Assembly (NCBI GenBank): GCA_020850775.1
Contig: JADZEA010000095.1
Location: 1 to 32,066 of the forward strand
Source: a bacterium
GTDB taxonomy: Bacteria > CLD3
Direction: 5' to 3'
Length of the DNA: 32,066 nucleotides
Positions 2 to 18,732 of the stretch are shown here, piece by piece (the first letter of the stretch is position 1; every line of letters begins with the position of its first letter). The notes under the pieces were generated by a model. The model saw nothing but the letters and a program-made list of their open reading frames with translations. It was not told the origin of the DNA and ran no database searches. The translations under genes and the position numbers were made by a program.

Positions 2-1351
2 CAGGTAACTGAAGACGTTGCGAGACCACTTGAGAGAGGACCTACAAAACGTTGGTGGATTGCATTTTTGGTTTCATTTTCGGTGGTCATGGTTGGATTT
101 GTGTCTGTTGTTTACCAAATCAAAACAGGAATTGGAACCTGGGGACTTAACAAGACTGTAGGTTGGGCTTTTGACATCACAAATTTCGTGTTTTGGGTTG
201 GAATTGGGCACGCAGGAACTTTGATTTCTGCAATTCTGTTCCTTTTCCGCCAACGTTGGAGAACTTCGATTAACCGTTCCGCAGAAGCGATGACAATTTT
301 TGCGGTAATGTGTGCTGGAGTTTTCCCGATAATTCACATGGGAAGACCCTGGCTTTTTTACTGGATTGCTCCTTACGCTAACTTTCGTGGTCCTTTGTGG
401 GTAAATTTTCGTTCGCCGCTGCTTTGGGATTTTTTTGCGATTAGCACTTACTTCACAATTTCTTTTGTTTTTTGGTACATCGGATTAATTCCTGATTTGG
501 CAACAATGCGGGACAGAGCGAAATCAAAAATCAAAAAAGCAATTTATCGTTTCACAAGTTTTGGCTGGAATGGTTCAGTCCGCACCTGGAATCGCTACGA
601 AACTGTTTACATGCTTTTGGCAGCTTTGGCAACTCCTTTGGTTGTTTCTGTTCACACGATTGTAAGTATGGATTTTGCAACTTCAGTAATTCCTGGCTGG
701 CACACGACAATTTTCCCACCTTATTTTGTTGCGGGAGCTATTTTTAGTGGTTTTGCGATGGTTTTGACTTTGATGATTATTGCCCGAAAAGTTTTGAATT
801 ACGAAGAATACATCACGGTTGACCACATTGAAAAAATGTGTAAAGTGATTGTTGCAACAGGTGGAATTGTTGGCTTAGCTTACGGAACTGAAATGTTTAT
901 GGCTTGGTATTCAGTAAACCACTACGAAAGATTTGCTTTTATGAACCGTGCTTTAGGTCCTTTTTCGTGGGCTTACTGGACGATGGTAACTTGTAACGTG
1001 ATTTTGCCGCAATTACTTTGGTTCAAAAAATTGCGACGAACGGTTTGGTTTGTATTTTTAATGACAATCGTTGTAAACATTGGAATGTGGTTTGAGCGTT
1101 TTGTAATTATTGTTACTTCAATTCACAGAGATTTTCTTCCTTCAAGTTGGGCTGATTATTCACCTTCAATCATTGAAATTTCAACTTTTATCGGAAGTTT
1201 TGGTTTGTTTTTTACAGCTTTTTTACTCTTTGCCCGTTTCGTTCCGTTTATTGCAATTGGTGAGGTAAAAGGTGTTTTGAGCTATGGAAAACAAGCTGAG
1301 AAAGAAATTGAACCTAACCAAAAAAACAAACTTGAAACGATGGAGGCATAG
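2..1351 (+). CDS. actC: ActC, NrfD-like integral membrane subunit of alternative complex III (5' partial)
   Basis: This is one of the two large quinol-binding membrane subunits of alternative complex III, which oxidises quinol and passes electrons to cytochrome c or an oxidase. The frame is open from base 2, so the gene starts upstream of the window; a TTG at 68 is internal. About 449 residues are visible, so probably only a short N-terminus is missing. Many long hydrophobic segments fit the roughly ten-helix NrfD/PsrC fold. Visible family features include a [10 protein letters not shown] segment near the start and [10 protein letters not shown] in the next helix pair. The stop codon abuts the ATG of actD at 1352, so the two are translationally coupled. 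The order C-D-E-F is the standard Act order, which makes the call firm. ActA and ActB should lie just upstream. Confidence 0.93.
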
Positions 1352-1879
1352 ATGGATTCACAATTGTTTTTGGGTGTTTTTTCAAATGAACACGATATTC
1401 TTGAGGCTACAAAAGCGACAAAAAATGCAGGTTACACAATTTACGATGTTTACACTCCTTACGCAGTTCACGGATTAGAGAATGCGATGGGTTTGAAGCC
1501 AAGCAGATTGACTTACGTTTGTTTACTTTTTGGAGTTTTGGGTTTGAGCCTTGGTGTTTTCATTCAATTTTGGGTTGGCTCAATTGATTGGCCAATAAAT
1601 GTTGGTGGAAAACCTTTCAATTCTTTACCTGCTTACTTGCCTGTAATTTTTGAACTGACAGTTTTAATTGCAGGATTAGGAGTTGTTTTTACAATGTTTG
1701 TTCGCACCAAACTTCGTCCCGGCAGGAAAAATTTTATGCCTGATTTAAGAATTACAAACGATAAATTTGTGATTGTTTTGGAGAAAAAAGATACCTCGTT
1801 TAATTTTGATTCAGTGCAAAACCTTTGGGGAAATTTTAATGTTCTTGAAACGAGAAAAGTTGAGGAGGTAACAAATTGA
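1352..1879 (+). CDS. actD: ActD, DUF3341 membrane subunit of alternative complex III
   Basis: A 175-residue protein of the DUF3341 family, the small two-helix subunit of alternative complex III. It has a soluble N-terminal part (residues 1-50) that begins with the typical FGVFSNEHDILEA-like stretch. Two transmembrane helices follow, at about 55-75 and 92-115, separated by the WPINVGGKPFNSLPAYLP loop characteristic of the family. The C-terminal tail is soluble. A GATGGAGG-type ribosome site lies at the end of actC, and the ATG follows that stop directly. The TGA overlaps the TTG start of actE. Its catalytic role is unknown in the family; it is regarded as structural. Confidence 0.92.
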   Translation: MDSQLFLGVFSNEHDILEATKATKNAGYTIYDVYTPYAVHGLENAMGLKPSRLTYVCLLFGVLGLSLGVFIQFWVGSIDWPINVGGKPFNSLPAYLPVIFELTVLIAGLGVVFTMFVRTKLRPGRKNFMPDLRITNDKFVIVLEKKDTSFNFDSVQNLWGNFNVLETRKVEEVTN

Positions 1880-2445
1880 AAAAAATAATTTTTTTAGCAA
1901 TAATTTTAATTGGAACTCTTTTTATTCTTGAGCAAATTCTCGGAAAAGACCCAAACAAAAAAAGTTTAGAATTTATGCCTGACATGGTTTATTCTGTAGC
2001 TTACAGGTCTGAATCTCCAAATCCTCATTTTGAGAATGGACAAACTCAACAAAATCCTGTAGTTGGGACAATTGCTCACGGCTACAAACCTTACCATTAC
2101 GAAAATTCCGTTGAAGAATCAATTCGTGCCGGGGAAGAACTTTTTAGTCCGTTCAACGAGCAAAATCCTCCTGATTTGAAACGTGGAAAAAAAATGTTTC
2201 AGGTTTACTGCCAGGTTTGCCACGGAGCAGGTGGAGAAGGCAACGGAATCGTAACAAAACGCGGTTATCCTCCGCCACCTTCTTTGCTTTTGGAAAATGC
2301 AAAAAATATGAAAAACGGACAGATTTATCACATCATCACAAAAGGTTATAAAAATATGCCTTCGTACAGTTCACAAGTAGAACGCCAGGACCGTTGGCAA
2401 ATTGTCTCCTACATCAGAACATTGCAGGAGGTAAAAAATGATTAG
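1876..2445 (+). CDS. actE: ActE, membrane-anchored monoheme cytochrome c of alternative complex III
   Basis: A 189-residue monoheme cytochrome c that receives electrons in alternative complex III. The N-terminal hydrophobic segment (about residues 3-22) is followed by no cysteine, so it looks like an uncleaved membrane anchor and not the lipoprotein anchor often seen for ActE. The heme site is C112-Q-V-C-H116, and M161 in a KNMPSY motif is the likely sixth ligand. The start is a TTG at 1876 that shares bases with the actD stop (TTGA). A strong GAGGAGGT ribosome site at 1863-1870 supports it. The last eight bases overlap actF. A periplasmic heme domain is expected. Confidence 0.92.
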   Translation: MKKIIFLAIILIGTLFILEQILGKDPNKKSLEFMPDMVYSVAYRSESPNPHFENGQTQQNPVVGTIAHGYKPYHYENSVEESIRAGEELFSPFNEQNPPDLKRGKKMFQVYCQVCHGAGGEGNGIVTKRGYPPPPSLLLENAKNMKNGQIYHIITKGYKNMPSYSSQVERQDRWQIVSYIRTLQEVKND

Positions 2446-3631
2446 CACAATCAGTACAATTCCGAATTTTAAAATTTCACCTAAAATCACCCGTTTTGTA
2501 GCAATTGTCAGTGCTTTAGGGTTGATTACTTTTATTTGCGGTCTTTTTCTTGCACCGGAAAGGATTTGGACAAATTTTCTGATTTGTTTTTACTACCTGA
2601 CAGGGCTTGGAGTTGGAGCAGGAATTTTGATTTCAATTCAGTACGTTTCCAACGCAGGTTGGGGAACTGCAATCCGCAGAGTTCCTGAAGCAATTATGGG
2701 AACTTTGCCATTTGCTGCTGTTGGCGGGCTTGTTTTGATTTTTGGAATTCACACGCTTTACGAATGGAGCCACGAAACTGTTCTTACCAATGATTTTATT
2801 TTAAGAGAAAAAAGCGTCTGGCTAAACGAACCTTTGTTCATTGGAAGAATGGTTGGTTACTTTGTGATTTGGATTTTACTCAGCAAATTTCTTGTAACAA
2901 ATTCCATAAAACAAGACAAAGACGGTGATGTCAAATACACAAAAAAGAATGTTAGAAATTCAGTATTTTTCATCATTCTTGGAATTTACACTTTTTGTTT
3001 GGCGAGCATTGACTGGATAATGTCTTTACATCCGCATTGGTACAGCACTATTTTTGGTTGGATGAATTTGGCAAGTATTTTTGAAAGTTCAATAGCTGCA
3101 ACTGTTGTTGTTGTTGTAATCTTGAGACACATCGGATACAAACACATTTTCAAAACTGAACACTTGCACGAGCTTGGAAAATTGATGATGGCATTTTGTT
3201 TTTTTTGGGTTTATACGTGGGTTTCGCAGCACATGCTGATTTGGTATTCCAATATTCCTGAGGAAACTTCTTACTACATTTTCAGGCATTTTGGTGGTTG
3301 GGGTTCGGTTTCATTTATGAATTTAGTGTTGAACTGGTTGGTACCATTTTTAATGCTTTTGCCAAAAGCGTCAAAACAAAACGACAAAGTAATGTTTCAA
3401 GCGGCTGTAATTTTATTAATTGGTCATTGGGTTGATTTGTACATAATGGTTATGCCAGCGCATTTTGGTGCTGAACCTGTTTTAGGAATTTGGGAAATTG
3501 GTACTTTTGCGGGGATGATTTTTGGCTTTTTTTGGTTAGTTTTCAAATCGCTTTCAAAAAATAATTTGATTCCAATAAAAGACCCTTACTTAGTTGAAAG
3601 TTTGCCTGAATTTGAAATTTCAAAAAGTTGA
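2438..3631 (+). CDS. actF: ActF, second NrfD-like membrane subunit of alternative complex III
   Basis: A 397-residue polytopic membrane protein matching the quinol:cytochrome c oxidoreductase quinone-binding subunit 2 (ActF). About ten hydrophobic helices are visible, with family stretches such as WTNFLICFYYLTGLGVGAG in helix 2, SIDWIMSLHPHWYSTIFGW mid-protein and GHWVDLYIMVMP near the end. ActC and ActF are homologous and each spans the membrane next to the quinol site. An AGGAGGT site precedes the ATG, and the gene overlaps actE by eight bases. It is the last gene of the operon and is followed by a strong hairpin terminator. No cytochrome oxidase genes follow, unlike the act-cox clusters of many Bacteroidota. 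Confidence 0.92.
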   Translation: MISTISTIPNFKISPKITRFVAIVSALGLITFICGLFLAPERIWTNFLICFYYLTGLGVGAGILISIQYVSNAGWGTAIRRVPEAIMGTLPFAAVGGLVLIFGIHTLYEWSHETVLTNDFILREKSVWLNEPLFIGRMVGYFVIWILLSKFLVTNSIKQDKDGDVKYTKKNVRNSVFFIILGIYTFCLASIDWIMSLHPHWYSTIFGWMNLASIFESSIAATVVVVVILRHIGYKHIFKTEHLHELGKLMMAFCFFWVYTWVSQHMLIWYSNIPEETSYYIFRHFGGWGSVSFMNLVLNWLVPFLMLLPKASKQNDKVMFQAAVILLIGHWVDLYIMVMPAHFGAEPVLGIWEIGTFAGMIFGFFWLVFKSLSKNNLIPIKDPYLVESLPEFEISKS

Positions 3632-3657
3632 TTCTTTTTACTGCCATACTTAAGAAG

Positions 3658-3701
3658 AAAGCCATAAAAAATCTCCATTGATTATTTTATGGCTTTTTTT
3701 T
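3658..3701 (+). terminator. Rho-independent terminator of the act operon
   Basis: A 12-bp perfect stem (AAAGCCATAAAA at 3658-3669 with its complement at 3685-3696) is extended by four more pairs across a one-base bulge. The loop is TCCATT, and eight T follow at 3694-3701. It sits 27 bases after the actF stop and ends the alternative complex III transcript. Confidence 0.88.
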
Positions 3702-3744
3702 GTTACTCAATTTTTAAATCTTTAGAAAAAAAATGAGAAAATAA

Positions 3745-4167
3745 CTAATTTTGTAGTTTATTTAGCATTGCTTCCAAAATTTGTATTTGAGCATTTGAAA
3801 TATCTTCTGAGGCTTTTGCACAAATTAAAAGGTCAATCGTGATTTCTTTTGAGAGTTTACAAAATATTTCAACTTTTCCTCCAAGTTTTGCATTGAAGAA
3901 TTCTACAAAACTTAATTCTCTAAAATCTTCAAGTTGAACCCAAGAATCTTTGCTTAGTTTACATTGACCTTTTGGAATACAAAAACTTTGATACCGAATC
4001 AGGTTTTGGCAGCCATAACTTAGTTCTCTCATTTTTTGTTTTGATGTAATAATCAAAACTATGTAAGGATAATTTTCCCCATCATTCAATAATACTAAAT
4101 ATTTATCTTTAAATACTTTTTCTTCCAATGGAAAGCTTTTAAAATATAAAATCGTTCCCGCTATCAT
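3745..4167 (-). CDS. Putative toxin partner of a Panacea-type antitoxin
   Basis: A 140-residue protein I cannot assign firmly. It starts with MIAGTILYFKSFPLEEKVFK and then a hydrophobic strand pattern (KYLVLLND, YPYIVLIITS). A Cys/Ile/FxIPKG segment and a WVQLEDFRELS segment follow. This order resembles the small beta-barrel of PemK/MazF-type toxins and of uncharacterised proteins paired with Panacea antitoxins, but I see no diagnostic catalytic residues. The C-terminal 40 residues look helical. It overlaps the upstream DUF4065 gene by 29 bases, with the start inside that gene's 3' end, which implies coupled translation. The toxin role is inferred mainly from the partner gene. Confidence 0.6.
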   Translation of the reverse strand: MIAGTILYFKSFPLEEKVFKDKYLVLLNDGENYPYIVLIITSKQKMRELSYGCQNLIRYQSFCIPKGQCKLSKDSWVQLEDFRELSFVEFFNAKLGGKVEIFCKLSKEITIDLLICAKASEDISNAQIQILEAMLNKLQN

Positions 4168-4729
4168 CTATTTTTGCCCAAAATTGTTCTCTCTCTTTTA
4201 TCTCTTCCATTAATTCAGGATTATCTTTTTTTAAGTAAAAATCTAATGGAATTTCACCATTTGGGTTCTTGTCTATTTCCCAAACTTTATACCAAGGACT
4301 ATCTTGCTCATGAGTTTTTTCAACAATTTCATTTGCATTAACACTTTTGAACTCTTCTGAAATTTCTTTTAAAATTCTAAGTTCTCTTCTTGAGAAATGA
4401 GAATCATCAAATTCTTTCTTCGAATCAAATAACAATTCATCAACCCCATCTTCTCTCGGTATAAAGAAAAAATTAAAATAGTGGTTTAGTTCTGTTTCTT
4501 CTTTTTTATTTGCAGTTTTAGTCACCTCATCAAAAAGTTCTTTTGAACAAGGACCAAACTTCCACGCTTGATATTTTAAACCTGTTACACTTTTTCCAAT
4601 TTCTGTGTAATGTCTAATATCCAATAAATAAAGAAGTTTGAATAATTTTGTTTTTTTGCAACATTCTGTATTGTTCACAAAAAAAACCATTGCATTTAAG
4701 AGTTTCTCTCTTGAATGTGAAACTAACAT
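4139..4729 (-). CDS. Panacea (DUF4065, SocA-like) domain antitoxin
   Basis: A 196-residue protein with a clear Panacea/DUF4065 domain. It opens with a helix ending in FFVNN, then the hallmark KTKLFKLLYLLDIRHYTEIG, then the YQAWKFGPCSKELFDEV segment at about residues 53-69. A long acidic second half ends in a REQFWAKIDDS tail that may contact the partner. Panacea proteins are antitoxins in many toxin-antitoxin pairs, including SocAB, and neutralise unrelated toxins. An AGAGG ribosome site lies five bases before the ATG. The antitoxin-first order with an overlapping second gene fits such a pair. Sampled lines of this locus are about 23-32% GC against about 40% in nuo, consistent with horizontal acquisition. 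Confidence 0.85.
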   Translation of the reverse strand: MLVSHSREKLLNAMVFFVNNTECCKKTKLFKLLYLLDIRHYTEIGKSVTGLKYQAWKFGPCSKELFDEVTKTANKKEETELNHYFNFFFIPREDGVDELLFDSKKEFDDSHFSRRELRILKEISEEFKSVNANEIVEKTHEQDSPWYKVWEIDKNPNGEIPLDFYLKKDNPELMEEIKEREQFWAKIDDSGNDFIF

Positions 4730-4783
4730 TATTGCCTCTTTATAAAATATTTTAAAATCATTACCAAGATAAAAAAGAGCTAT

Positions 4784-4797
4784 GACAACAGTATGTC
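4784..4797. promoter_or_regulatory. Inverted repeat GACA-N6-TGTC, possible operator of the toxin-antitoxin pair
   Basis: Half-sites GACA (4784-4787) and TGTC (4794-4797) lie in the leader between the proposed antitoxin promoter and its ATG. Such pairs often repress themselves at a palindrome in this place. The arms are only four bases, so this is weak evidence. Confidence 0.25.
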
Positions 4798-4816
4798 TTA
4801 TCTTATACTATACTTT

Positions 4817-4845
4817 AAGTTATGTAAAATAGTTGTTTATATCAA
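4817..4845 (-). promoter_or_regulatory. Candidate sigma70-type promoter for the antitoxin-toxin pair
   Basis: On the minus strand, TTGATA (4840-4845) is separated by 17 bases from TAACTT (4817-4822), giving a leader of about 80 bases before the ATG at 4729. The match is reasonable, but the region is so AT-rich that chance matches are likely. Confidence 0.35.
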
Positions 4846-4914
4846 TACCAAAACTTCAATTTACAAATGACTTTACCCCCCAAAAAAAAATTTTGACGTG
4901 TTTTTTTTAGAGTT

Positions 4915-6396
4915 TTACCCAAAATAAATTGTCATCGAATTTTGTATCCAAACAGAAAGTGGATTAAAATAAATCCCAAGTAAAATTGTAAATCCTGCAA
5001 GAACCGAAGCAAGTAAACCACTACCAAGTTCAAACTCAACTTTTTCCCCGGTCAGTGCATCTTCAAGGTACATTGCCCGTGCAATTCGCCAGTAGTAAAA
5101 AAGCGAAACAACACTGTTAAGAAGCCCTAAAACCGCAAGCAGGTAAAGTTTTGCATCAGCTAAAGCACTGAAAAGATAAAATTTTCCAACAAATCCTGCC
5201 ATCGGTGGAAGACCTGTCAGTGAAGCAAGAAAAACGGTCATCGTGAAAGCTAAAAACGGAGCACGGGTTTTTAAACCTTTAAAAGCATAAATTTCTTCGC
5301 TTTTAACTTTTTTAGAAATGTAGTCAACCACAAAAAAAGCACCAAAATTCATAAAAAGATAAGTCGTAAGGTAAAAAACAATCGCTTCTGCACCGCGAAG
5401 CGAAAGTGCTGAAATTCCCATAAGCATGTAACCTGCGTGTGCAATGCTTGAGTAAGCCAAAAGCCTCTTTACATTCGTTTGGCTTAAAGCTGAAAGATTA
5501 CCAATTGTCATTGTCAGCACTGAAACCACAATGAAAATTTCACGAAGCCCAATTTCTTCAAGTGCCGGAATCCAGTTTGCAAGCGTTACATCGTTTGTAA
5601 AAGTCAGAGAAATAAATCTTAGTAAAAGCGAAAAACCAGCCGCTTTCGGAGCAACTGAAAAGAAAGCTGCAACCGGAGTCGGTGAACCCTGATAAACATC
5701 AGGACACCAAAAATGAAAAGGAGCAAAAGCAATCTTGTAACCAATTCCACCCAAAATCATCAAAACCGAAAAGGTTAAAGCATAAGTACTAACTGAATTG
5801 TTGGCTAAGAAAATGTAAATTTCGTGTAAATTTAGTTTTCCCGTAAGCCCGTAAAGAATTGAAGCTCCGTAAAGCATAATTCCCGAAGACATCGCACCGT
5901 AAAGAACGTATTTCAGCGAGGCTTCACTTGATTCCATATTTTCTTTGTTGTAACCCGCAAGAACGTAGGAAACAATGCTAACAATTTCAATTGACATCGC
6001 AATCGTCAGCAGGTTTGAAGAGCCGGACATCAAAAGTGTTCCAAGCGTTGCCGTCAAAATCAAAGCATAATATTCGCCTGAATTTATTTTTCGGCTCGTA
6101 AAAGTTGACATTGAAATCAAAGTTGCAATCGCACCACTTGTCAGAAAAATATACTTGAAATACGTGTTTAAACTATCTGAAACCAACATTCCTGAAAACA
6201 AAAATGCAGGAGGATTTGAGCTGACGGTTAGCGAAACAAAAGCAGCAAGAAAAAACGCAAAAGCAGTTATCCCAACCGTTTCTTTGTTCTCGCCTTTGAT
6301 AAAAAGGTCAACTAAAAAAACTACACAAATTCCAACTGCCAAAATGATTTCAGGCAAAATGTACGGAACGCTTTGTAAAGCTGTTAAAGTATTCAT
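4915..6396 (-). CDS. nuoN: NADH-quinone oxidoreductase subunit N
   Basis: A 493-residue antiporter-like membrane subunit of complex I that contributes one proton channel. E137 in the AMSIEIVSIVSYVLAG helix and K221 in GYKIAFAPFHFWCPDVYQG match the conserved Glu/Lys pair of NuoN. SPTPVAAFFSVAPKAAG follows, with Lys in place of the His seen in NuoL. Length and roughly 14 hydrophobic helices are normal. It is the last gene of the L-M-N operon, 21 bases after nuoM. I see no good Shine-Dalgarno site before its ATG, so translation may depend on nuoM. Confidence 0.96.
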   Translation of the reverse strand: MNTLTALQSVPYILPEIILAVGICVVFLVDLFIKGENKETVGITAFAFFLAAFVSLTVSSNPPAFLFSGMLVSDSLNTYFKYIFLTSGAIATLISMSTFTSRKINSGEYYALILTATLGTLLMSGSSNLLTIAMSIEIVSIVSYVLAGYNKENMESSEASLKYVLYGAMSSGIMLYGASILYGLTGKLNLHEIYIFLANNSVSTYALTFSVLMILGGIGYKIAFAPFHFWCPDVYQGSPTPVAAFFSVAPKAAGFSLLLRFISLTFTNDVTLANWIPALEEIGLREIFIVVSVLTMTIGNLSALSQTNVKRLLAYSSIAHAGYMLMGISALSLRGAEAIVFYLTTYLFMNFGAFFVVDYISKKVKSEEIYAFKGLKTRAPFLAFTMTVFLASLTGLPPMAGFVGKFYLFSALADAKLYLLAVLGLLNSVVSLFYYWRIARAMYLEDALTGEKVEFELGSGLLASVLAGFTILLGIYFNPLSVWIQNSMTIYFG

Positions 6397-10427: not shown

Positions 10428-10895
10428 ATGGATAGTTCTAAAAAAGATGACGTTTCCCGCAGAAATTTCCTTTCCACAACTTTAATGGGAGTCGGCTTGG
10501 TTGCAAGTTATGGTGTAACTACTTTTTACGCTGCAAATTTTATTGCTCCTGAAGATAAAAAGAAAATTTACCGTTCATTGTACGTTGCTCCTGAAAAATC
10601 TGTTCCTGTCGGCAAAAGTATTGATTTTGAAGACTTAAAAGGTCGCAAAATTGCAATTACCAACACAGGAGACGGATTTAAAGCACTTTCTACAAGCTGC
10701 ACTCATCTTGGTTGCCAGGTTCATTGGGAAAACGAAAAAAATGCGTTTTACTGCCCTTGCCACGAAGGCTACTTTGATTCTGACGGAAACGTGACGAAAG
10801 GTCCTCCGCCAGCTCCGCTTGCAAAGTACGATGTTGAAATCATTGACGGGAATATTTTTGTAAAAGTTGAGGAGGTTTACAATGCAATCAGTTGA
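10428..10895 (+). CDS. Rieske [2Fe-2S] protein of a cytochrome bc-type complex
   Basis: A 155-residue Rieske iron-sulfur protein that takes the first electron from quinol. A twin-arginine motif (SRRNFL, residues 10-15) precedes a hydrophobic segment at about 16-37, so export by Tat with an N-terminal anchor is expected. The cluster boxes are C91-T-H-L-G-C96 and C109-P-C-H112, with cluster ligands C91, H93, C109 and H112 and the disulfide pair C96/C111. A GPPPAPL turn follows. An AAGAGG site lies seven bases before the ATG. The gene overlaps cytochrome b by 14 bases. The symbol could be petC or qcrA; I leave it open. Confidence 0.95.
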   Translation: MDSSKKDDVSRRNFLSTTLMGVGLVASYGVTTFYAANFIAPEDKKKIYRSLYVAPEKSVPVGKSIDFEDLKGRKIAITNTGDGFKALSTSCTHLGCQVHWENEKNAFYCPCHEGYFDSDGNVTKGPPPAPLAKYDVEIIDGNIFVKVEEVYNAIS

Positions 10896-11931
10896 TAAAA
10901 AAAATTGGTTTGCTGAAAGAATTCCTGTTGATTGGAATTCTCTAAAGCATTTTACGAATGAACCCGTTCCAAATCACCTGAAACGTTGGTGGTTTGCACT
11001 TGGCGGAACTCCTGCTTACCTTTTTATGGTTCAATTAATTACAGGAATTTTCCTGACTTTTTACTACGTCCCAACTCCTGAACAAGCTTTTGAAAGCATT
11101 ACAAGGATTACTTATGAAATCCGTTTTGGCTGGTTTATTCGCGGGCTTCACATGTGGAGTGCAAATTTAATGGTTATCGCCGTTATTCTACACATGCTCA
11201 GAGTGTTTTTCACGGGTTCGTACAGAAAACCGCGAGAACTGAACTGGATTGTTGGAGTTTGTATTTTGCTTGTAACGGTAAGTTTCGGGTTTACAGGCTA
11301 TTCCTTAATTTATGAACAACTTTCTTACTGGGCTGCAACTGTCGGAACAAACATTGCCCAAAGTGTTCCTGTTGTCGGTCCTTTTATGGCTGCTTTTATT
11401 CGTGGCGGTGAAGAAATTGGTCCAAACACTTTGACCCGTTTTTTTGTGTTTCACATCGGAGTTTTACCAACTGTAATGTTTATTTTTGTCTCAACTCATA
11501 TTTTCCTTGTCAGAACTACCGGAGTTACAGAGTTTAAATTCAAGGAACAAGAAAATGAAAAGGAAGAAACTTTCCCGTTTTTCCCAAATCATTTGCTAAC
11601 AGAACTAATCATTGGATTGCTTTTAATGTACATCCTCACAATGCTTGTTGTAATTTTCCCGCCTGAAATGCACCAAAAAGCCAATCCTTTAGTTACTCCG
11701 GAACACATCAAACCTGAATGGTATTTCTTCGCTTCTTTCCGTTGGCTAAAGTTAAACAGTTTAATTGTCGGAATTATCGGACAAGCTGTAGCCGTAATTT
11801 TAATAATGGCTTGGCCCTGGATTGATAAAATTTTCAGACGTAAAAATGAAAATTCAGAACTAAGTCTTTGGATTGGAGTTGCTGGATTTCTTGCGTTTTT
11901 AGCTCTCACTGTTTGGGAAGCAATGGTTTAA
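10882..11931 (+). CDS. Cytochrome b (b6/subunit-IV fused type) of a Rieske/cyt b complex
   Basis: A 349-residue diheme cytochrome b carrying both quinone sites. I chose the ATG at 10882 because GAGGAGG (10869-10875) lies six bases upstream; a TTG at 10867 lies upstream of that ribosome site. Heme ligands H90/H104 (13 residues between) and H191/H206 (14 between) show the b6-like spacing. P278-E-W-Y281 is the Qo-site motif. The C-terminal half (PFFPNHLLTELIIG onward) looks like subunit IV, so one chain combines both parts. No cytochrome c1 or f gene follows; an octaheme cytochrome occupies that place. Confidence 0.95.
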   Translation: MQSVDKKNWFAERIPVDWNSLKHFTNEPVPNHLKRWWFALGGTPAYLFMVQLITGIFLTFYYVPTPEQAFESITRITYEIRFGWFIRGLHMWSANLMVIAVILHMLRVFFTGSYRKPRELNWIVGVCILLVTVSFGFTGYSLIYEQLSYWAATVGTNIAQSVPVVGPFMAAFIRGGEEIGPNTLTRFFVFHIGVLPTVMFIFVSTHIFLVRTTGVTEFKFKEQENEKEETFPFFPNHLLTELIIGLLLMYILTMLVVIFPPEMHQKANPLVTPEHIKPEWYFFASFRWLKLNSLIVGIIGQAVAVILIMAWPWIDKIFRRKNENSELSLWIGVAGFLAFLALTVWEAMV

Positions 11932-11964
11932 AAAAAAGTAAAACTAATTTTAATAGGTGTAAAA

Positions 11965-13431
11965 ATGTCTTTAAATGCTAAAAGAATCGTTATCGCTCTA
12001 CTAAGTTTTGCATTTCTTGCTGCATTACTTTTAGTTGGCTACATTGAAGGGAACAAAAGAATTCTTGGTAAAAAAGCCGAAATTAAAGTTCCTGTTGCAA
12101 GCGAAAATTGTGTTGCTTGCCATAAAATCAAAACTCCTTCTCTCGTTTCTCAGTGGGAAGACAGTAAACACGCAGTTAAAGGTGTTTCCTGTATGGAATG
12201 CCACACTGCTGAAGAAGGTGATACTGATGTTTTTGAACACGAAGGTAAAAAAATTGCTATCGTTGTTTCGCCAAAAGACTGTTCAAAGTGTCATCAAAAG
12301 GAATTTACTGAATTCCAAAAATCACACCACGCTTCCGGTGCTAAAATTTTAGGTTCGCTTGACAACGTTCTTGCCGAAGTTGTTGAAGGCGACATGGGAA
12401 GGCTTGCTTTCCACGGCGAATCTCCTGCTGCTGTCAGCGGTTGTAAACAATGCCACGGTTCAGTAGTTAAAATTATGGAAAACGGAAAACCTGACCCGGC
12501 AACCTGGCCAAACACAGGAATCGGAAGAATTAATCCTGACGGTTCACTTGGAGCTTGTTCCGCTTGCCACTCAAGACACAATTTCACTCCTGAAGTTGCA
12601 AGGAACCCTGAAAATTGTGGAAAATGCCATCTTGGACCTGACCACCCGCAAAAAGAAATTTATGAAGAATCAAAACACGGTGTTGCTTTCAGAAGTTTCA
12701 AGGAATACATGAATCTTAACGCTCAACCCTGGAGAGTTGGAATTGAGTACACTGCGGCACCAACTTGTGCAACTTGCCACATGAGTGCAACAGAAGAACA
12801 AGCTGTTACTCACGATGTCGGAGATAGAATTTCCTGGACACTTCGCCCACCAGTTTCTGAAAAAATCGATGCTAAAGCGAAAAGAGACGGCAAAGAAGTT
12901 TTGTCTTGGGAACAACGAAGAAAAAATATGCAAAACGTCTGTCAAAAATGCCATTCTCCTGAATACGTAAACGGATTTTACCAACAGTTTGACTCAGCAA
13001 TCAATCTTTACAACGAAAAATTTGGTATCCCTTCAACCAAAATTTACAAAATGATGCGTGAAGGAAAAGTCCTGACCGCAACAGAATTTGACGAGGAAGT
13101 TGAATGGTCTTACTACTACTTGTGGCACCACGAAGGAAGACGTGCAAGACACGGAGCTGCAATGATGGGACCAGATTACACCCAATGGCACGGATTTTTT
13201 GAAGTCGCTGAAAGATTCTACACCGAGTTCGTTCCACAAACAAAAGAAGCTTGTGAAGAAGCAGTCAAACACGGAGGCGAACCAGCAATCGCTGCTAAAA
13301 ACGTTCTCAAAGAACTTGACGATGTTCTTAACAGAGAAGAACACAAGTGGTACCTCGGTAAACTTTCCGATGAAGAAAAAGCAAAACGTAAAGCCGCTGC
13401 GGAAGAGTTTAAGAAACGTTACACAAATTAA
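11965..13431 (+). CDS. Octaheme cytochrome c of the hydroxylamine oxidoreductase (HAO) family
   Basis: A 488-residue exported cytochrome with eight CxxCH sites, beginning at C49, C76, C106, C160, C198, C218, C268 and C326. This number and spread, plus the block LWHHEGRRARHGAAMMGPDY (386-405) followed by TQWHG (406-410), place it in the HAO-like octaheme family. The N-terminal hydrophobic stretch (about 9-27) looks like an uncleaved anchor. Family members oxidise hydroxylamine or hydrazine, or reduce nitrite or hydroxylamine, or only carry electrons; the sequence alone does not decide. It lies 33 bases after cytochrome b with an AGGTG ribosome site, so it may replace cytochrome c1 as electron acceptor. 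A Lys/Glu-rich helical tail (about 450-488) ends the protein. Confidence 0.9.
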   Translation: MSLNAKRIVIALLSFAFLAALLLVGYIEGNKRILGKKAEIKVPVASENCVACHKIKTPSLVSQWEDSKHAVKGVSCMECHTAEEGDTDVFEHEGKKIAIVVSPKDCSKCHQKEFTEFQKSHHASGAKILGSLDNVLAEVVEGDMGRLAFHGESPAAVSGCKQCHGSVVKIMENGKPDPATWPNTGIGRINPDGSLGACSACHSRHNFTPEVARNPENCGKCHLGPDHPQKEIYEESKHGVAFRSFKEYMNLNAQPWRVGIEYTAAPTCATCHMSATEEQAVTHDVGDRISWTLRPPVSEKIDAKAKRDGKEVLSWEQRRKNMQNVCQKCHSPEYVNGFYQQFDSAINLYNEKFGIPSTKIYKMMREGKVLTATEFDEEVEWSYYYLWHHEGRRARHGAAMMGPDYTQWHGFFEVAERFYTEFVPQTKEACEEAVKHGGEPAIAAKNVLKELDDVLNREEHKWYLGKLSDEEKAKRKAAAEEFKKRYTN

Positions 13432-13461: not shown

Positions 13462-13505
13462 AAAAGCCTTCAAAATCCACCAGCGATTTTGGAGGCTTTT
13501 CTTTT
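13462..13505 (+). terminator. Rho-independent terminator of the Rieske-cyt b-octaheme operon
   Basis: A 16-bp stem with a single G-T pair (arms 13462-13477 and 13485-13500), a seven-base loop and a T-rich tail after GGCTTTT. It follows the octaheme stop by 30 bases and ends the operon. Confidence 0.85.
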
Positions 13506-13671: not shown

Positions 13672-16600
13672 ATGACTGAACTCCTTTTTAATCGTTACCA
13701 AAAACTTGCTAAACTACCAACTAAATCACAAAACGAGGTTTTTAAAGTTCTTGACACTTTTACGGGACAAGTCTTAGCACTAAAATTACTTGTAAATCCT
13801 GACTACTCTCAAGATTTTAAAATTGAGTTCCAAAGGCTAAAAACCTTAAACTCTCCAAACCTTGTCAAGGTTTATGATTTTGCCTTCACTAACGAAAAAC
13901 AACTTTACTTTACAATGGATTTTATTGATGGAGTTCATTTTAACGACTTTTTTAGCAAAGCCAAAAAAGAATCTCAAAACCTTGTTTTAAAACAAATTAC
14001 TTCGGTTTTGCAATACCTTCACTCACAAAATTTCATTCACGGTGACCTAAAAACAGAAAATATTTTGGTAAATAAAAGCAGTGGTTTTTACTCCGTTAAA
14101 CTCATTGATTTTGGCTTGTCAAATTTTAAATTTAAAGTTAGGATTTCAGGAACTCTTGACTACTTACTTCCCGAAGAAATTGAAAAAAAGCCCTTTGCTC
14201 CCTACGAAAAGGATTTTTATGCTTTTGGAATCTTACTCTACAAATCAGTTTTTGGTAAAACTCCTTTTGAAAGCAAAACTTCAAGCGAAACTCTAAGCAA
14301 AAAAATAAATTATAAATCAAAAGAAATTTTTGAAAAATGCCAAAACTTGGAAGAACCACTAAAAACACTCATTCCCAAGCTGCTTGAAAGAGAACAGAAC
14401 AAAAGACTAAAAAATTTTGAAGAACTGTTCCAAATCCTTCAGGGCGAATCAGAAATTGAAAGAAACAAAGATTTTCACAAAGAGAAATTTTGTGGACGAA
14501 AAAAAGAGTTTGAATTTTTGAAAAATAGTTTTGAGAGAGTTTACGATGCAATTCCTTGTTCAATTTTGATTGAAGCAGAGACTGGAGTTGGAAAATCAAG
14601 GTTAGTTTCTGAGTTTAAATCTTTTTTACAACTTCAAGAAACAAGCGTATTTACCGCTAATTGCCTTGATAATTTTCATGGTGAAAACTTTTTTTCAGCA
14701 GGTAAGATTTTAGCTCAAATTCTTTTTGTTGACGAGTTTAAAAACCTGCTTTCACAAAAAAGAAAGCAAATTTTTTCACAAACTCTGAACGTTTTAGCCA
14801 AAGAAAAAACTAATGAAAATTTTTTAAAAAGTGAGTTGTTCCTAAATTTTTATGAATTTTGTGCCGAAATTTCCAAACAAAAACCAATCGTAATAATTTT
14901 GGATAACATTCAGCAGGAAGATTTTGGTGGAATTGAACTTTGGAACTACTTTTTAAGCAAACTTAAACAAAGAAAAAATGCTAAAATGCTTTTGGTTTTC
15001 ACTCAAAAAAAAGAAGAAATTTCTGAACTCAACAAAACCCTTTGCAATGAAATTTTATTACTTGAAGATTTTTCACAAAACGAGGTTTTTGAGTTTATCA
15101 CTTTTGCAGTTGGAGAAAAAATTGCGAAGGAATTTTCGCAGGAAATATTTGAACAAACAAAAGGAAATCCACTACTTTTGGTAGAAATGATTAGTTTTTT
15201 AGTTCAAAATTTTGGTTCAAATTTTAAAGGGGACCTTGAAAAAGTCCCAAAAGTTTTTGATGAAATTTTCCTTGAGAAGCTAAAAAAACTTTCTGAAGAT
15301 GAAATCCAAACCCTTCAGGATTTGGTAATTTTTGGAAATGCTTTTGAGTTGTCCTGGCTTGAAAGATTTGTAAAACAAAATAAAAAACTGATGCAAAACA
15401 TCGGCTTGCTTGTCAAAAAAAAGTTTTTGGAGCAAGAAAAAACTCGCTTTGAATTCAAACACCAAAAATTCAGGGAAATTGTTTACTCAAAAATTCCACA
15501 AAAAGAAAAGGCTAAGAAACACACCTTAATCGCAAATTTTTTCCTTGCTGAAAAATTTATAAAACCTGAAATTCTTGCTTTTCATTTTTCTAAAAGTGAA
15601 AATCCAAAACTTGCACTTCCTTTTATTTTAGAAGCAGTAAAAAACTCAATTCATTCTTTGGCTTACAGAAATGCTCAAAAACACATTTCAGAAGGTGAAG
15701 TCTTGCTTGCTAAAATTTCACAGAAAACTAAAAAAGAAGAAGAAATTGAGTTTAAGATTTTGAATTATTACAAAGATACTTCAGAATTTTTGGGGTACAG
15801 GGGTTTGAAAGAAAAGTTTTTAAGACAATTGGAACTTGGGCAAAAACTTGGTGAAGAACAAACTTTGGAAGCACTTTCAAACCTTGCAAAATATTTCCAC
15901 AAAGCTGAAATTAACATTGAAGAAAGCCTGAAATTTATTGAACAAGCACTTGATTTTTATAAAAATGGACGTAAAAAAGATGTCCTTTACGTTGATATTT
16001 TGCTTAGAAAAATAATTGTTGTTTACAGTAGAAAAGATGCAAACCTTTTAGAAATGCTTACAGAGACACTTGAAATCGTTTCTAAACTTGAAAATGCTGA
16101 AAGATTACTTTGCTCAACTTACAATCTTTTTGCAGTTTACTATGAAAAGGAAGGACAAAGTTTTAAAGCAATTGAATTTTACGAAAAGGCTTTTCAAATT
16201 GCTGTAAAGAACAAAATTACTTCTGAAATTATTGTTTTACAAACAAACCTTGCAGACCAGGTCGCAAAAAAAATCTCTCCTGAAATGGGAACTCAAATGC
16301 TTGAAAATTCTTACCTTGAAGCAAAAAAAACAGGTTTTTCTTTTCATGAATTTAATGTTGGAAATTCACTTGCACTAAATTTAGCAAAAGTGCATAAATT
16401 TTCCCCGTTTGCGGGGCTTTTTACCGAGCTAAACTTTGCATTGGAAGAAATTGGAAACAAAATTTATGAAATCCAACTTCACTTGTCAATTTGGCATTAC
16501 TATTTTGAGCTTGGTTATTTTGTAAAAGCCCTGGAAAGCATTGAAAAGCTAAGAAATGAAGTTGAGAAAGCTAATTTTCACGTCCCAATTTCACTTGGAA

Positions 16601-18732
16601 TTTATATTTTTGCAATTGGAAATCAAGCAGAAATTTTACTTTCTGAAGGCAAAAATGAACAGGCGCTTGAAATTGTTTCAGATAAAAAATTTCCAAACTT
16701 CCCTTTTCCTGAAATTTTAGAACTAAAGGAGCTTTTTTACGGAATAATCCTTTTTAAAATTAACCAAATCACAAAAGCTAAAGAAATTTTTAGAAAAATT
16801 GCAAAAGGAACAAATCTGCCTTTGCAATTTGCGGAAACAGCAAAATCTTACCTTGCAAGGATTGAAAACGACTTTGAAAGCTCGGAAAAAATTGTGATTA
16901 GCAAAAATTTTTTTATTCACTCAAAAACCGAACGAAACAGAATTTTGTGGAATCATTTTCTTTTGGCCAGGGAAACAAACCAAAGTTTGGAGCTTCAAAA
17001 GAAGATTTTAGATGAAGCCTTTGAGCTGGTTCTTGTTTCAAGTTTGACAATAAAATCTAAACTTGACAGGAAAAATTTCCTTCTCAAAAACCTCTTTGCC
17101 TCAAAAATTTTTAGTGCTTACTTTCATTTTCATTTTGGAGAGAATTTTCAAAATGAAAGGGAGAAATTCCTTGAAAAATTTTGTGAAGCAAGTTCAGAAC
17201 TTGGTAAAATCTTTGCAAACACAAAACAACCAAAACAAAGCATTGAAATCAGTAAAATTGTAGAAATCAGCAATCTTTTAAATTCTTCTTCTGAACCACA
17301 AATTATTTTGAATAACTTGATTGACCTTGCAATTGAACACTTGAAAGCTGACAGAGGATTAATCATTCTTCACGATAAAAATAGCGGTGAACTAACGGTA
17401 AAAGTTGGTAGAAACGTTGAAAAAGAAACGATTTACGATGTTACACAAATTTCAAAAACAATAATTAAAGACGTTAGCAAAGGTGGAAAATCCATTTTTG
17501 CTTTCAAACTTGATGAAGACGAAAGATTTGCACAAAATATTAGCGTTGTAAACCTAAAAATTCGTTCTCTTGTGTGTGTTCCATTAAAAAAAGAAAATGA
17601 AATTTTTGGAACAATTTATCTTGATTCTTTGAATGAGCAGAAAAGTTTTGGTGAATATGAAGTTGAATTTCTTGAAACAATTGCAAACCTTGCAGTTGTT
17701 GCGATGGAAAATGCAGAAATTTACAAAAAAATTCATCAAAAAACCTTAACGCTACAAAAAACTGTTGAAGGGAAATTTAGCTTTCACAAAATCATTTCTA
17801 AAGATGAAAAAATGATGCAAATTTTTTCTGAACTTTCAGAAGTCGCAAAAACGGAGATTTCGGTTTTAATTTTGGGCGAAAGTGGAACAGGAAAAGAATT
17901 GATTGCGAAAGCAGTTCATTTTCAAAGCCAACGAAAAGAAAATAATTTTATTGCGATTGATTGCGGAGCGATTCCTGAAACGATGATTGAAAGTGAACTT
18001 TTTGGACACAAAAAAGGTTCGTTTAGTGGAGCAGTTAGCGATAAAAAAGGATTATTGGAAGAAGCAAACAATGGAACTGTTTTTCTTGACGAAATCACAA
18101 ACACAAGTTTTTCCTTTCAAGCAAAGTTTTTGAGGGTTTTGCAGGAAAAGGAAATTCGTAGAGTTGGTGAAAATTTTTACCGTAAAATCAATGTTAGAAT
18201 TCTTGCTGCAACAAATCTTGACATTCTTGAGGAAATTAAAAAAGGAAATTTTAGAGAAGATCTTTACTTTAGGCTAAACAATTTTTCATTTTATCTTCCA
18301 CCGCTTAGAGAACGAAAAGATGACATTCCACTCTTGGTTAGCCATTTTGTTGAGGAATTTTCAAAATCTTACAATAAAAAAATAGTTGGAATTTCACAAA
18401 AACTTTTAGATTTGCTAACAAGTTTTGAGTGGAAAGGTAATGTTAGAGAACTTCGTTCAGTTGTTAGCGAAATAATTTTACGCGAAAAAGGTGATTTTCT
18501 TTCAGAGGAAAGTTTGCCAAAAAGATTTTCTAATTTTGTAAAACCCCACAACCTAACAATCAAAATCACAACAGAAAAAGAGCAACTTGTCAGCCTTGAC
18601 GAAAGCCAAATTTTTTACATCCAAAAAGTTCTGCAAGAAACAAAAGGCAACAAATCTGAAGCTGCAAGAATTTTAGAAATCCCACTCTCAACCTTAAGGT
18701 CAAAAATGCAAAAATTAGGAATGAAAAACTAA
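13672..18732 (+). CDS. Giant regulator: Ser/Thr kinase-like, STAND-like ATPase, helical repeats, GAF, sigma54 AAA+ and Fis HTH
   Basis: A 1686-residue cytoplasmic protein with no membrane segment. Domains in order: a protein-kinase fold (1-260; K38, HGDLK at 123-127, D146-F-G); a predicted ATPase (about 275-620; Walker A around K307, Walker B IVIILD at 406-411); a long TPR-like helical region (about 620-1195); a GAF domain (about 1204-1350); a sigma54 activator AAA+ domain (about 1365-1615; Walker A GTGK 1405-1408, loop G1449-S-F-S-G-A1454, Walker B VFLDE 1470-1474); and a Fis-type helix-turn-helix (about 1642-1684). The kinase glycine loop is degenerate and the catalytic loop is HGD, not HRD. 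The GAFTGA loop reads GSFSGA, a conservative change. The kinase/ATPase/TPR/GAF arrangement is known in bacterial signalling proteins; the added enhancer-binding module implies direct control of sigma54 promoters. Confidence 0.9.

Follow-up and report, generated by a model that had tools for sequence, protein, structure and literature searches.

In Caldithrix abyssi, the genes Cabys_2558, Cabys_2557 and Cabys_2556 encode a Rieske protein, a cytochrome b and an epsilon-Hao beside the periplasmic nitrate reductase Nap, and a genome-based scheme proposed in 2017 for this one cultured bacterium, in which the tyrosine and NrfA are both missing, passes electrons from Rieske/cytochrome b to epsilon-Hao either directly or via NapM (PMC5317091). 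An association of epsilon-Hao with Nap is also reported there (PMC5317091). In Kuenenia stuttgartiensis, a Rieske/cytochrome b complex and an HAO-like octaheme (Kuste4569-4574) were reported to comigrate, and nitrite reduction was proposed for the octaheme (PMC12954380). Reductive HAOs are nitrite-reducing octahemes without the Tyr cross-link, the key site being occupied by His in reductive members and by Tyr in oxidative ones (PMC12758564). Here we analyzed a stretch of 32,066 nucleotides (JADZEA010000095.1; the whole stretch is referred to as the window), which is contig C95 of a 3.09-Mb bacterial genome and carries a three-gene unit for a Rieske protein, a cytochrome b and an octaheme cytochrome c of the HAO family.

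We propose that the products of these genes form a single membrane-bound menaquinol:nitrite oxidoreductase, whose octaheme nitrite reductase would be driven by a Rieske/b module running the Q-cycle; judged from sequence, this reading appears reasonably probable. Two of its parts can be stated with more assurance: the Rieske, cytochrome b and octaheme proteins very likely work together, and the octaheme likely reduces nitrite or a close relative of nitrite. The features of the unit are as follows, with positions counted in the whole window and all three genes on the + strand.

10428..10895, + strand: Rieske [2Fe-2S] protein, 155 amino acids (PF00355, 8.7e-13), with a twin-arginine motif (SRRNFL)
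10698-10715 and 10752-10763, + strand: Rieske cluster motifs CTHLGC and CPCH, with the CxH...CxxH ligands intact
10882..11931 (ATG at 10882), + strand: cytochrome b, 349 amino acids, a single chain with b6 and subunit-IV regions (PF00033, 3.3e-56; PF00032, 9.6e-12)
11965..13431, + strand: octaheme cytochrome c of the HAO/IhOCC family, 488 amino acids, with eight CxxCH motifs and an N-terminal membrane helix, predicted nitrite reductase
12442..12456, + strand: fourth CxxCH (C160-H164), aligned with the catalytic heme 4 of HAO in a one-to-one motif alignment; invariant
12640..12645, + strand: D226-H227, aligned with Asp267-His268 of the HAO distal pocket (1fgj)
13189..13191, + strand: H409, matched in alignment to Tyr467 of HAO (in GGWTYTEGWG), the residue that forms the cross-link
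13462..13500, + strand: terminator-like hairpin closing the unit, with a 16-pair stem, a loop of 7 and a T-rich tail

The layout agrees with what an earlier note, made from the DNA letters alone, had described: the Rieske and cytochrome b genes overlap by 14 bases (10882-10895), the octaheme with its eight CxxCH motifs starts 33 bases past the end of cytochrome b, and the strong terminator that the note placed behind it is the best terminator-like site of the region. The note had also seen no c1 or f gene, and a search of the window genome and 8 relatives gave no match to cytochrome c1 (PF02167), cytochrome f (PF01333) not having been searched genome-wide. The unit thus differs from a canonical bc1 or b6f complex in having no c1 or f acceptor subunit beside it, and the octaheme occupies the position of c1. 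Only a single cytochrome b match was obtained in the window genome at E <= 1e-62.

To describe the distribution of the unit, 386 genomes drawn from across the domain were scanned once with the octaheme as query and once with cytochrome b, the latter scan being unbiased regarding the octaheme. All of the 12 best genome matches to cytochrome b (332-792 bits) had an octaheme of the same family directly downstream, and the next matches, which start at 295 bits, mostly had other multihemes there (4, 5, 9 or 11 hemes). The Rieske, cytochrome b and octaheme genes were found in identical order at no fewer than 16 loci examined, and the 16 linked cytochromes b formed one clade (100/99) on a tree with 31 other cytochromes b from octaheme-bearing genomes. 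Pairwise distances of the octaheme correlated with those of cytochrome b (r = 0.904) and of Rieske (r = 0.858), with 0 of 2000 permutations as high in either case, and these correlations (r = 0.86 to 0.90) partly reflect the relatedness of the hosts. Rieske, cytochrome b and octaheme are a conserved unit. Because the arrangement recurs at at least 16 loci, chance juxtaposition was rejected, and the single cytochrome b clade and the distance correlations speak against it as well. A normal bc1 with a stray octaheme nearby, the pattern that the earlier note had named as fatal to its idea, is rejected on the octaheme beside each of the 12 nearest cytochromes b together with the c1 search, which gave none in the class.

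The closest relative of the window genome (G001), which belongs to the same family, has a napA identical to that of QQUF01000050.1, "Calditrichaeota bacterium CLD3" (hereafter CLD3); its three genes stand in the same order, and its octaheme shares 78% identity with the window protein. The named records bearing the unit are three Planctomycetota metagenome-assembled genomes, one uncultured bacterium and CLD3, and a Gemmatimonadota contig ends at the octaheme, so that linkage is not readable there. On the octaheme tree, linked octahemes branch deeply at two or more separate positions, and unlinked relatives (some of the unlinked cases being truncated contigs) fall between these; octahemes have therefore exchanged partners or lost their linkage repeatedly. 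The groups with linkage are one of the window, CLD3 and Planctomycetota and a Caldithrix-like one, at 35-37% identity. A single origin of the linked octahemes is accordingly not supported, since they do not group into a single clade (7 changes along the tree), though the linked cytochromes b do. When the window and CLD3 were compared, nothing convincing was found as a common regulatory site upstream of the unit.

Among the cytochromes b of this region of the tree, it is usual for a multiheme to replace c1, and the proteins in question carry 4 to 11 hemes at the next-best loci. In three sister-family genomes (loci L180, L182 and L185 of G007, G006 and G008), the gene behind Rieske/b encodes a cytochrome with 11 hemes, about 485 amino acids and 1-2 membrane helices, a further alternative to c1. 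At another of the next-best loci, L173 (G178:C20), the partner of the Rieske/b unit is an octaheme from a different HAO-like subfamily (FHANPDY type), which is about 27% identical to the window protein and has a similar N-terminal membrane helix. The locus L066 (G050:C7:304500-316000, 834-6165, minus strand) carries an octaheme of the same family, 54% identical, followed in order by a 629-amino-acid oxidoreductase-like open reading frame, a Rieske gene, a 520-amino-acid cytochrome b-like frame of a different clade and a tetraheme frame. In its make-up this locus is similar to the Rieske/b clusters with an NAD(P) oxidoreductase known from anammox bacteria, and it may represent a second independent Rieske/b-octaheme association.

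In sequence comparison, the octaheme was nearest to IhOCC of Ignicoccus hospitalis (PDB 4QO5, 1e-50), with HAO, HOX and HDH more distant (HAO/HDH 1e-16 to 1e-18) and Kustc0458 (6h5l) distantly similar (1.5e-17). A profile of 29 homologues aligned all eight heme motifs with the HAO/IhOCC structures (4QO5 at 1.5e-117). The AlphaFold2 model of the octaheme (pLDDT 80.8), which begins with a long N-terminal helix at 3-33, retrieved in a Foldseek search at E <= 0.001 only 4qo5 (IhOCC, 2.5e-13), 6h5l (Kustc0458), 1fgj (HAO) and 6hif (HDH). The eight aligned CxxCH motifs and the same fold place the protein in the HAO/OCC family, with IhOCC as the closest solved structure by both the sequence and the fold search. 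However, IhOCC is without the residues aligned to H227, H388 and H409 of the window protein, and the IhOCC-like sequences in the alignment group apart in a clade of their own, with no Rieske/b genes adjacent in the loci examined.

The D226-H227 pair is kept in all linked homologues, apart from a change of D to E in one, and it aligns with Asp267-His268, which are catalytic residues in HAO. The match of H409 to Tyr467 was obtained by bridging the C-terminal alignments via 6h5l (Kustc0458) and an HAO-like homologue; His stands at this position in 13 of the 14 aligned linked sequences, and the segment is missing in the other. With H409 at the aligned position, the Tyr467 cross-link of oxidative HAO/HDH is predicted to be absent from the window protein, which in this respect is like the reductive HAO/epsilon-HAO proteins (HAOr Kustc0458, and HaoA with its NapC/NrfH-type partner): Tyr467 is replaced and Asp-His is kept. 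As predicted from the alignment, D226-H227 together with H409 is a reductive active-site signature. The electron donor known for reductive HAO/epsilon-HAO is a NapC/NrfH-type or soluble cytochrome and not Rieske/b. Further conserved histidines of the octaheme (69, 92, 122, 205, 238, 283 and 388) are predicted to suffice as distal ligands for seven hemes, with heme 4 left open. The linked octahemes also share an N-terminal membrane helix of similar sequence.

The quinol-oxidizing part appears complete. Cytochrome b of the window has four heme-b histidines with H-13-H and H-14-H spacing and the Qo motif PEWY, which is kept as PEWY or PEWF in all 16 linked cytochromes b; together with the Rieske cluster motifs, this assigns the pair to the bc1/b6f superfamily, and by these motifs the Rieske/b module is intact. 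A Cys at the (W/F)xCLGG-type position binds heme c_i in b6. This Cys is found in 9 of the 16 linked cytochromes b (L031-L034, L086, L090, L094, L113 and L114), and the window protein (residue A39) and CLD3 have Ala at that position, so covalent heme c_i may vary within one linked cytochrome b clade.

The neighborhood of the unit fits nitrate respiration. NapA or another nap gene is found no more than about 5 kb away at 8 of the 16 linked loci (L032, L033, L036, L071, L089, L112, L113 and L114), and both NapA proteins tested against NCBIfam, that of CLD3 included, scored above the curated NapA cut-offs. The CLD3 unit is immediately preceded by a nap operon in divergent orientation, with NapD and putative NapA/G/H/B/F genes, and immediately followed by a YgbA_NO gene (PF11756, 2.3e-39; L036:9598-9945), the latter suggesting a link to reactive nitrogen species. 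In the window genome, napDAGH are on contig C44, not beside the unit. NrfA was absent in both genomes of the window's family, and was found at 586-600 bits in 5 of 7 sister-family genomes, plus one truncated copy; the sister-family genomes with NrfA are without this octaheme, and at least three genomes of the sister family (G006, G007 and G008) have a Rieske/b unit with an 11-heme protein instead. No full-length NrfA was found in 12 of the 14 unit-bearing genomes checked. Among octaheme relatives without Rieske/b, a pentaheme of the NapC/NirT kind follows the octaheme in L085 (PF03264, 1.4e-7) and, more weakly, in L077, and this NapC/NirT-related pentaheme is likely another quinol oxidizer. 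With its relatives standing beside different quinol oxidizers, the octaheme therefore appears as a terminal reductase joined to various oxidizers.

In the mechanism that we propose, cytochrome b and Rieske would oxidize menaquinol at the Qo site in a bifurcating Q-cycle reaction as in bc complexes. One electron would pass from Rieske to the octaheme and on to heme 4, and the second would reach the Qi site by way of the b hemes. The Rieske head would donate directly to the membrane-anchored octaheme standing in the place of c1, whose other seven hemes would relay electrons to heme 4. There, nitrite delivered by the periplasmic nitrate reductase Nap would presumably be reduced, most likely to ammonium. 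Formation of a complex by the three proteins and proton translocation are both inferred. The conserved unit, the intact quinol module, the reductive active site, the Nap context, the NrfA pattern and the alternative quinol oxidizers used by octaheme relatives are all consistent with this scheme.

Three other explanations were weighed. The octaheme might be a non-catalytic, c1-like multiheme wire between Rieske/b and another periplasmic acceptor, such as NapA via NapB, a soluble cytochrome c or an oxidase. Nap adjoins half of the linked loci, multihemes with 4 to 11 hemes hold the same position in related Rieske/b loci, a heme-copper oxidase is present in the window genome and NapM was considered as an intermediary in Caldithrix (PMC5317091), all of which would fit a wire. 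However, a wire does not account for the retained catalytic Asp-His of HAO and reductive-type His at the Tyr467 position, for NrfA being mostly missing where the unit is present, or for octahemes of the same family that adjoin a different likely quinol oxidizer in some relatives, and we consider this explanation unlikely. Of the two fates the earlier note had allowed for the octaheme, passing electrons on or reducing a nitrogen compound, reduction is much better supported. The note's electron flow from Rieske to octaheme gains from a unit that is without c1 and conserved as such, the transfer itself being plausible.

It is also conceivable that the genes are co-transcribed for regulation only, with Rieske/b delivering electrons to Nap or to cytochromes in general and the octaheme fed by soluble carriers (alternative complex III, NapM-like) instead of directly by Rieske. 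Alternative complex III is indeed encoded in the same genome, as the earlier note had stated, its NrfD-family subunit, ActD and cytochrome c genes lying at the start of the window; routes through it and NapM were listed by the Caldithrix authors (PMC5317091), and octahemes of the same family also occur without adjacent Rieske/b. Given the strictly linked inheritance with one cytochrome b clade, the similar N-terminal membrane helix of the linked octahemes and a genome with no c1, this is quite improbable. Still far less probable is a reverse direction, in which the octaheme oxidizes hydroxylamine or NO and electrons enter the quinone pool through Rieske/b: the homology to HAO and HDH would allow it, but His takes the place of the Tyr that forms the cross-link in oxidative members (by the distinction of PMC12758564) and the Nap and YgbA_NO neighbors point towards reduction.

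Several observations weigh against the proposed menaquinol:nitrite oxidoreductase. The apo AlphaFold model superposes poorly over its whole length (TM about 0.3), low scores that probably reflect modelling without hemes, and the equivalence of H409 and Tyr467 comes from a bridged sequence alignment rather than from structure. Several linked loci have no Nap neighbor. Under a strict definition (CLD3 NapA as query, at least 40% identity), Nap adjoins 6 of 16 linked and 2 of 51 unlinked loci, fewer linked loci than the 8 of 16 given above, and the Fisher p = 0.0017 for this difference is optimistic owing to the phylogenetic non-independence of the loci. At E <= 1e-100, no NapA match was found in 6 of the 14 unit-bearing genomes, and 2 of the 14 have NrfA as well.

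In comparison with the described systems, the unit has the same three genes, the same order and the same proposed role as in Caldithrix abyssi. The locus L112 (G351) has the gene order of Caldithrix abyssi beside nap, and its cytochrome b falls in the same clade as that of the window, whereas the two octahemes are 35% identical and belong to different octaheme clades. Nap is beside the unit in Caldithrix abyssi and CLD3 and on another contig in the window genome. With three adjacent genes and a cytochrome b of the same clade, the window unit is a more divergent member of the already proposed Caldithrix-type arrangement. To that proposal our analysis adds the breadth of the arrangement, the one-clade cytochrome b, the c1 test, the assignment of His409 and, for one class, the pattern of NrfA presence and absence. 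As to the anammox precedent cited in the earlier note, Kuenenia is reported to have an HAO-like octaheme with a Rieske/b complex, yet the parallel is looser than Caldithrix abyssi (PMC5317091): in Kuenenia, b6 and subunit IV are split, the complex has an NAD(P) oxidoreductase and one more multiheme of six or eight hemes, and the HAO-like octaheme is additional and does not replace c1 (PMC12954380).

Elsewhere in the window, NuoL/M/N-type genes, a naming that is our reading of antiporter-type subunits, lie upstream of the unit on the opposite strand. Between the alternative complex III genes and these complex I genes, a SocA/Panacea-domain antitoxin-like gene and an overlapping partner of 140 amino acids and no known family were found (3745-4729, minus strand). 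Downstream, 13672-18732 encodes a protein of 1686 amino acids which, from its translation, has apparent Ser/Thr kinase-like, ATPase/TPR-like, GAF-like and sigma-54 activator regions.

The Rieske/b-octaheme arrangement is more widespread than the one cultured bacterium of 2017. In the NrfHA and NapC-type routes, nitrite reduction to ammonium is held to be non-energy-conserving at the quinol-oxidizing step (non-electrogenic). We put forward, tentatively and at somewhat less than even chances, that in nitrate ammonification the reduction of nitrite is rendered proton-motive by one widespread complex, with a Q-cycle module directly reducing a catalytic octaheme, and that this complex replaces NrfA in several lineages. 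If so, the energy yield assigned to the lineages bearing the unit, including Planctomycetota and Calditrichota-like uncultured bacteria, would change, and nitrate ammonification in genomes without NrfA could be accounted for. The unit would also allow a direct test of multihemes as early electron acceptors for Rieske proteins.

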